A stretch of DNA of 52,500 nucleotides from Gammaproteobacteria bacterium (GTDB lineage: Bacteria > Pseudomonadota > Gammaproteobacteria > RBG-16-57-12). Under the pieces are notes generated by a model, which saw only the letters and a list, made by a program, of their open reading frames with translations, was not told the DNA's origin and did not search any database. Positions 1 to 431 of this stretch are shown piece after piece (position 1 is the stretch's first letter; each line of letters begins with the position of its first letter). The stretch spans positions 1-52,500 of the forward strand of contig JAKIVC010000018.1 in assembly GCA_021647245.1 (NCBI GenBank). Direction: 5' to 3'. Made by a program: the position numbers and the translations under genes.

Positions 1-63
1 GTGACCTCTTCATTCTGTTGCCATTTATTTTAATAATATTTTTTATGTGGTGTTTTCGGTGTG

Positions 64-112
64 CTTACAGCCGATAAAGCGCCATTGTATTTGGCCGCAA
101 CCTTGTTATGTT
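64..112 (+). promoter_or_regulatory. Putative promoter and GacA-type half-site of the GGA-rich small RNA
   Basis: A -35-like TTGTAT (85-90) and a -10-like TATGTT (107-112) are separated by 16 bp and would start transcription near 118-120, just before the first GGA motif. Upstream, CTTACA (64-69) matches the right half of the GacA/UvrY upstream element TGTAAG-N6-CTTACA. The left half is not recognisable at the right distance. The promoter is plausible but weak, and the GacA link is an inference from one half-site plus the nature of the RNA. Confidence 0.4.
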
Positions 113-117
113 TAATG

Positions 118-264
118 TCGGAAGAGGAGATACAAGGGAGTTTTCAAGGAAGAACCATAAGGATATACAGAGGGATGAATTTTGCACCAGGGAGGTGCTG
201 CGGACAGGATGTCCGGTTTGGAGTGGTAGTTGTACTAAAGGTGGCCGAAAGGTCGCCTTTTTTT
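118..264 (+). ncRNA. CsrB/RsmY/RsmZ-like GGA-rich regulatory small RNA (CsrA/RsmA sponge)
   Basis: Ten GGA trinucleotides fall within 103 bases, beginning at 120, 126, 137, 148, 161, 173, 191, 202, 207 and 220. Several sit in hairpin loops, the preferred CsrA/RsmA site. One hairpin has GCACC (184-188) and GGTGC (194-198) around an AGGGA loop. A second has CGGAC (201-205) and GTCCG (211-215) around AGGAT. A third has a 5-bp stem at 140-144/151-155 around CAAGGA. The RNA ends in a GAAA-loop terminator with seven T. GGA loops plus an intrinsic terminator are the hallmark of RNAs that titrate the translational repressor CsrA/RsmA under GacS/GacA control. Class assignment is by architecture, not primary homology. 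An 81-codon reading frame over the same bases has no protein-like features and is probably spurious. Confidence 0.8.
237..264 (+). terminator. Intrinsic terminator of the GGA-rich small RNA
   Basis: A 10-bp stem (237-246 with 251-260, two G-U pairs) closes a GAAA tetraloop and runs into seven T (258-264). This sets the 3' end of the small RNA. Confidence 0.85.
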
Positions 265-431
265 ATGCCTGCTCGATACTCTTGTGATGGTATCAAGCAG
301 AGGTAGAGTGAAGTCTATAGGTTATGAAACGGTCAAGGACGATCGTCGCCGATTAAACCCTTGTTCCATGTTGCCGATAAATCGTACAGCTTGTGATTGT
401 TTTCCAAGCATTGCACACGATGAGGGCAGCT

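Follow-up and report, generated by a model that had tools for sequence, protein, structure and literature searches.

The beginning of one gammaproteobacterial contig raises the question of what an unusually GGA-rich stretch encodes and why it lies where it does. The window that we analyzed is the whole of contig C18 of the genome G000, 52,500 nucleotides long. An earlier note had read positions 118 to 264 as a regulatory RNA that sequesters CsrA/RsmA and had counted ten GGA motifs within 103 bases. Our recount gave the same figure, with all ten (at 120, 126, 137, 148, 161, 173, 191, 202, 207, and 220) falling in the 103 nt from 120 to 222. This GGA density is exceptional. The runner-up 105-nt stretch on either strand of the window holds six GGA. 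When one strand of the whole window was shuffled with dinucleotide composition preserved, 2 of 200 versions reached ten, as did 34 of 2,000 shuffles of the element's own bases. The features of the locus are listed in Table 1, where the 5' end of the RNA is an inferred, approximate transcription start.

Table 1. Features at the start of the window (positions count from the first base of the window)
Feature	Position	Strand	Remarks
Block common to the window and the C12 copy of G000	1-343	+	97% identity; C12 side runs upstream into 5S rRNA gene
CTTACA half-site from the earlier note	64-69	+	Present; as part of a GacA box not above chance
Promoter-like TTGTAT (85-90), 16 nt, TATGTT (107-112)	85-112	+	Read by eye; TATGTT -10-like
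GGA-rich small RNA gene	118-264	+	~147 nt, inferred 5' end to terminator end
Weak hairpin GTTTT-CAAGGA-AGAAC, loop CAAGGA	140-155	+	Five pairs invariant where present; -0.1 kcal/mol alone
Stable hairpin GCACC/GGTGC, loop AGGGA	184-198	+	~-8 kcal/mol
Stable hairpin CGGAC/GTCCG, loop AGGAT	201-215	+	~-8 kcal/mol
Intrinsic terminator, GAAA loop	237-264	+	Terminator scan; stem 237-260, seven T 258-264

The note had also placed GGA motifs in at least three hairpin loops. Two of these hairpins are stable, and folding predicted their loop GGAs at 191 and 207 to be open (unpaired probability of 1.0 and 0.97, respectively), but the third, around CAAGGA, is marginal. In the same folding check, which the note had proposed, the GGA at 202 is predicted to be buried in a stem (unpaired probability of 0.01), and the total folding energy of the element is ordinary (z of -1.5, with 18 of 200 shuffles equally stable). 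The GAAA-loop terminator with its seven T, which the note had described, was called by the terminator scan.

Each of the three genomes in the genus carries the RNA. G000 has a second copy on contig C12, with 97% identity over 343 bp; the sister genome G002 has two partial copies, each at a contig end; and G001 has a single copy with 76% identity. A 30-nt core, AGTTTTCAAGGAAGAACCATAAGGATATAC, is unchanged in the G001 homologue, in which the stem CGGAC/GTCCG has become CGGGC/GCCCG around an unchanged AGGAT loop. In the terminator, two pairs have compensatory changes among the copies. Across the four helices, three base pairs are altered on both sides, compared with none or one when the pairing was slid, and 98% of cells in the covariation alignment are paired in the true register, compared with 38 to 60% when it was slid. 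This level of covariation was matched by 25 to 29 of 500 shuffles in a comparison of three genomes, so that the four sequences provide modest evidence for the proposed helices. A search of named genomes with the core pattern returned one record, the metagenome-assembled genome Gammaproteobacteria bacterium isolate MC-02, and the locus there is the same as that of G001. Weak extra matches on G000 contig C9 and G002 contig C5, with two and four GGA, were judged by eye to be coding sequence and were rejected.

The second copy shows one setting of this RNA. Read in reverse complement, contig C12 opens within a 5S rRNA gene, which Rfam scores at 82.5 bits. Past this gene come a strong terminator (GACCCCATCC...GGATGGGGTC with a tail of eight T), another hairpin that carries a T run, and then an AT-rich stretch. 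This AT-rich spacer spans some 240 nt, and the C12 copy of the RNA starts approximately 290 nt downstream of 5S. It is thus directly behind an rRNA operon and in the position of the rrn-trailer sRNAs, downstream of 5S and past the first terminator. Since base 1 of the window falls inside the block common with C12, the window copy very probably follows an rRNA operon as well, the assembly breaking at that point. The copies in G002 lie in the same two flanking contexts as those in G000, one on the argH side and one on the acyl-CoA ligase/zapE side, and the contigs break at the RNA in both. No 5S gene was found in the G002 assembly, and its copies are presumably linked to rrn. In the G001 genome, a terminator and then unrelated genes come after the assembled 5S, and the RNA is not beside that 5S; it is flanked by a recC-like gene and by a gene that we read by eye as a lytic transglycosylase. 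Neither an rRNA operon nor a copy of the RNA turned up in the G001 sequence upstream of the argH-side gene. Between the RNA and argH, the window also has a 146-amino-acid open frame (393 to 833) that is conserved at 69% in G001 within the genus and at 30% in G003 within the family, and no NCBIfam model matched it.

Over a 99-nt stretch of the RNA, the two copies in G002 do not differ at all, while orthologues between the species differ by 8 to 14, which suggests that the copies are homogenized with one another. The two G000 copies differ at 8 of the 99 positions of this stretch.

We also looked for control elements upstream of the RNA. The promoter-like elements that the note had described can be read by eye, but a promoter scan of positions 1 to 1000 of the window gave no sigma-70 site at threshold. 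Its CTTACA half-site is likewise present, but the best GacA-box match upstream of the window RNA is no better than in shuffled sequence. The regions upstream of the RNA in G000 and G001 are no more similar than shuffled sequences. We lean toward transcription from the RNA's own promoter rather than read-through from the rrn operon, since the G001 copy stands alone and, at C12, a strong terminator and a long spacer come before the RNA.

G000 encodes one CsrA, 87% identical to that of E. coli, which is the protein that a CsrA/RsmA-sequestering sRNA calls for in its host. It also encodes a UvrY/GacA-like regulator (50% identical) and a BarA-like hybrid kinase (572 bits), both scoring below their NCBIfam cutoffs. 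The RNA itself has what marks the functional class: multiple GGA, some of them in hairpin loops, on a short predicted non-coding transcript with a terminator. The note had seen no obvious resemblance in primary sequence to known members, and Rfam gave no match. At both gathering and permissive thresholds, no family was assigned to the window RNA. With the models that the note had proposed as a check, neither CsrB nor PrrB/RsmZ reached its gathering score: the only related score came from CsrB (RF00018), at 10.1 bits where the gathering score is 71, and PrrB_RsmZ (RF00166) had no listed match to the window copy at an E value of 10. The G001 homologue scored 23.7 bits against PrrB/RsmZ (E value of 0.095; gathering score of 44).

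Similarities to the known RNAs lie in their architecture. CsrB and CsrC of Enterobacteria (RF00018 and RF00084) share with the window RNA the many GGA, hairpin loops with CAGGAUG, and an intrinsic terminator, and their hosts resemble G000 in having CsrA and BarA/UvrY-like proteins. CAGGAUG is the repeated element of CsrB (PMC7652899) and is the same as the loop of the window RNA at 201 to 215. However, CsrB covers more than 350 model positions with about 18 sites, compared with roughly 147 nt and ten GGA here. PrrB/RsmZ of Pseudomonas is closer in length and has a similar series of GGA hairpins, but the window RNA differs from it in having no GacA box above chance and no listed match to its Rfam model. 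The family and its rRNA setting look undescribed, although the type of RNA is already known.

The nearest precedent for the setting, though a partial one, is provided by RrA, RrB, and RrF of E. coli, sRNAs that lie between the dual terminators of three rrn operons (PMC8144298). RrB, which has five GGA, bound CsrA in vitro at a KD of around 100 nM, and its deletion had modest effects only (PMC8144298). In our open-access literature search, this was the only study of CsrA-binding RNAs at rRNA operons. Like the window RNA, these sRNAs are found past 5S after a terminator as near-identical copies, with several GGA, one of them in a GGGCAGGAYGCCC hairpin. The differences are that RrB has half as many GGA as the window RNA, that the E. 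coli RNAs are read-through products while the window RNA probably has its own promoter, and that they lie in rrn while the G001 homologue lies outside it. A search for homology to RrB gave 10.9 bits on the sense strand versus 11.9 for an opposite-strand match to the same stretch. The E. coli rrnB trailer has a hairpin, CGGGCAGGACGCCCG, that resembles that of the window RNA, and only this AGGAY hairpin is alike. Overall similarity to the trailer is not convincing by sequence comparison, and we do not claim homology. The RrB hairpin CGGGCAGGACGCCCG (MG1655 rrnB trailer, L101) also closely matches a hairpin in the G001 homologue, CGGGCAGGATGCCCG, and this near identity may reflect convergence on a favorable CsrA site.

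Taken together, we consider it highly likely that positions 118 to 264 encode a non-coding CsrA/RsmA sponge RNA of about 147 nt, because of its anatomy, its conserved GGA loops on stems with compensatory changes, the lack of coding potential, and a host that has CsrA together with a UvrY/GacA-like regulator and a BarA-like kinase. In this model, the GGAs in the two stable loops and in single-stranded linkers would bind several CsrA dimers, which would be titrated away from their target mRNAs. Most of its transcription would start at a promoter of its own that lies downstream of the rrn terminator and ahead of the RNA, and it may be under BarA/UvrY control; CsrA binding is likewise a prediction. 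The note's reading is thus supported by the anatomy, the conserved loops, and the host proteins, but its statement that this combination is specific for CsrA/RsmA-sequestering RNAs was too strong. The alternative closest to this model keeps CsrA binding and changes the origin of the transcript. The RNA could be an rrn trailer like RrA/RrB/RrF, made by terminator read-through and processing, so that its level would follow rRNA synthesis and link CsrA activity to growth rate. The position of the C12 copy, the CsrA-binding RNAs in the same position in E. coli (PMC8144298), and the way that the copies travel with rrn all fit this alternative, which we nonetheless find unlikely given that two T-run hairpins, the first a strong terminator, and the AT-rich spacer separate 5S from the RNA and that the G001 homologue is not behind the assembled 5S.

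Two further explanations deny the locus any function as a sponge. A purine-rich rrn spacer that arose by chance or was passively copied, then duplicated and homogenized, would account for copies in an rrn-linked duplicated block and for the identity of the G002 copies against diverged orthologues. It is a very improbable account of a G001 homologue that keeps the 30-nt core, the GGA loops, and compensatory stems outside rrn, or of the exceptional GGA density. The locus could also be a small protein or the leader of a downstream gene, as an open frame of 81 amino acids (61 to 306) crosses the RNA. A terminator lies inside this frame, and indels of 1 nt and 5 nt between copies and species, including a 1-nt deletion in the second copy, break any reading frame. 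Thus, we rejected the coding reading, which has next to no chance of being correct, and consider the RNA non-coding.

Returning to the sponge model, a bolder extension is that a full-strength sponge is built into the rRNA-operon unit of this lineage. The operons would take it along when they are duplicated, and recombination would keep its copies alike. The dosage of the sponge, and perhaps its transcription too, would then track ribosome synthesis, CsrA activity would be set by growth rate, and the RNA would partly replace a second sponge gene broken by an insertion sequence in G000. We regard this extension as speculative and rather doubtful. The present analysis adds an unlisted predicted Csr/Rsm-type RNA in a gammaproteobacterial order represented here by four genomes and, beside E. 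coli RrA/RrB/RrF, a second case in which genes for RNAs that probably bind CsrA follow rRNA operons. It could help to test whether cells tie CsrA activity to ribosome production.

The second locus, a putative sponge gene, was found by a search with model R1. G002 has an intact, different GGA-rich RNA (L095; contig C78, 13479 to 13729) with CAGGATG in its terminator loop. In G000, the orthologous gene lies in two pieces at the contig ends C58 (4282 to 4439) and C15 (366 to 401) (L093 and L094), divided by an IS3-family element that parts the RNA from its terminator, with GAAGA on both sides; both flanks are syntenic with G002. With this locus broken, we conjecture that G000 may rely on its two copies of the window RNA.

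The class-wide model search covered 369 genomes. Many of the matches were discarded since they rest on the terminator alone and have few or no GGA. We retain the GGA-rich matches L062, L063, L064, L065, L067, L075, and L078 solely as candidates; the 1.5 kb on either side of each contained no 5S gene. All of these except L064 are candidate unlisted Csr-type RNAs with a GGA-rich body and a GGC-rich terminator, and no Rfam family matched them at the gathering threshold. L065, L067, and L078 (from G278, G024, and G171) are one family. L064, on the minus strand of G188 contig C53, is possibly a cluster of Csr-type RNAs in another gammaproteobacterial family. It consists of two tandem GGA-rich modules, at 1758 to 1501 and approximately 1000 to 840, and, after them, a third GGA-rich RNA that has a terminator of its own.
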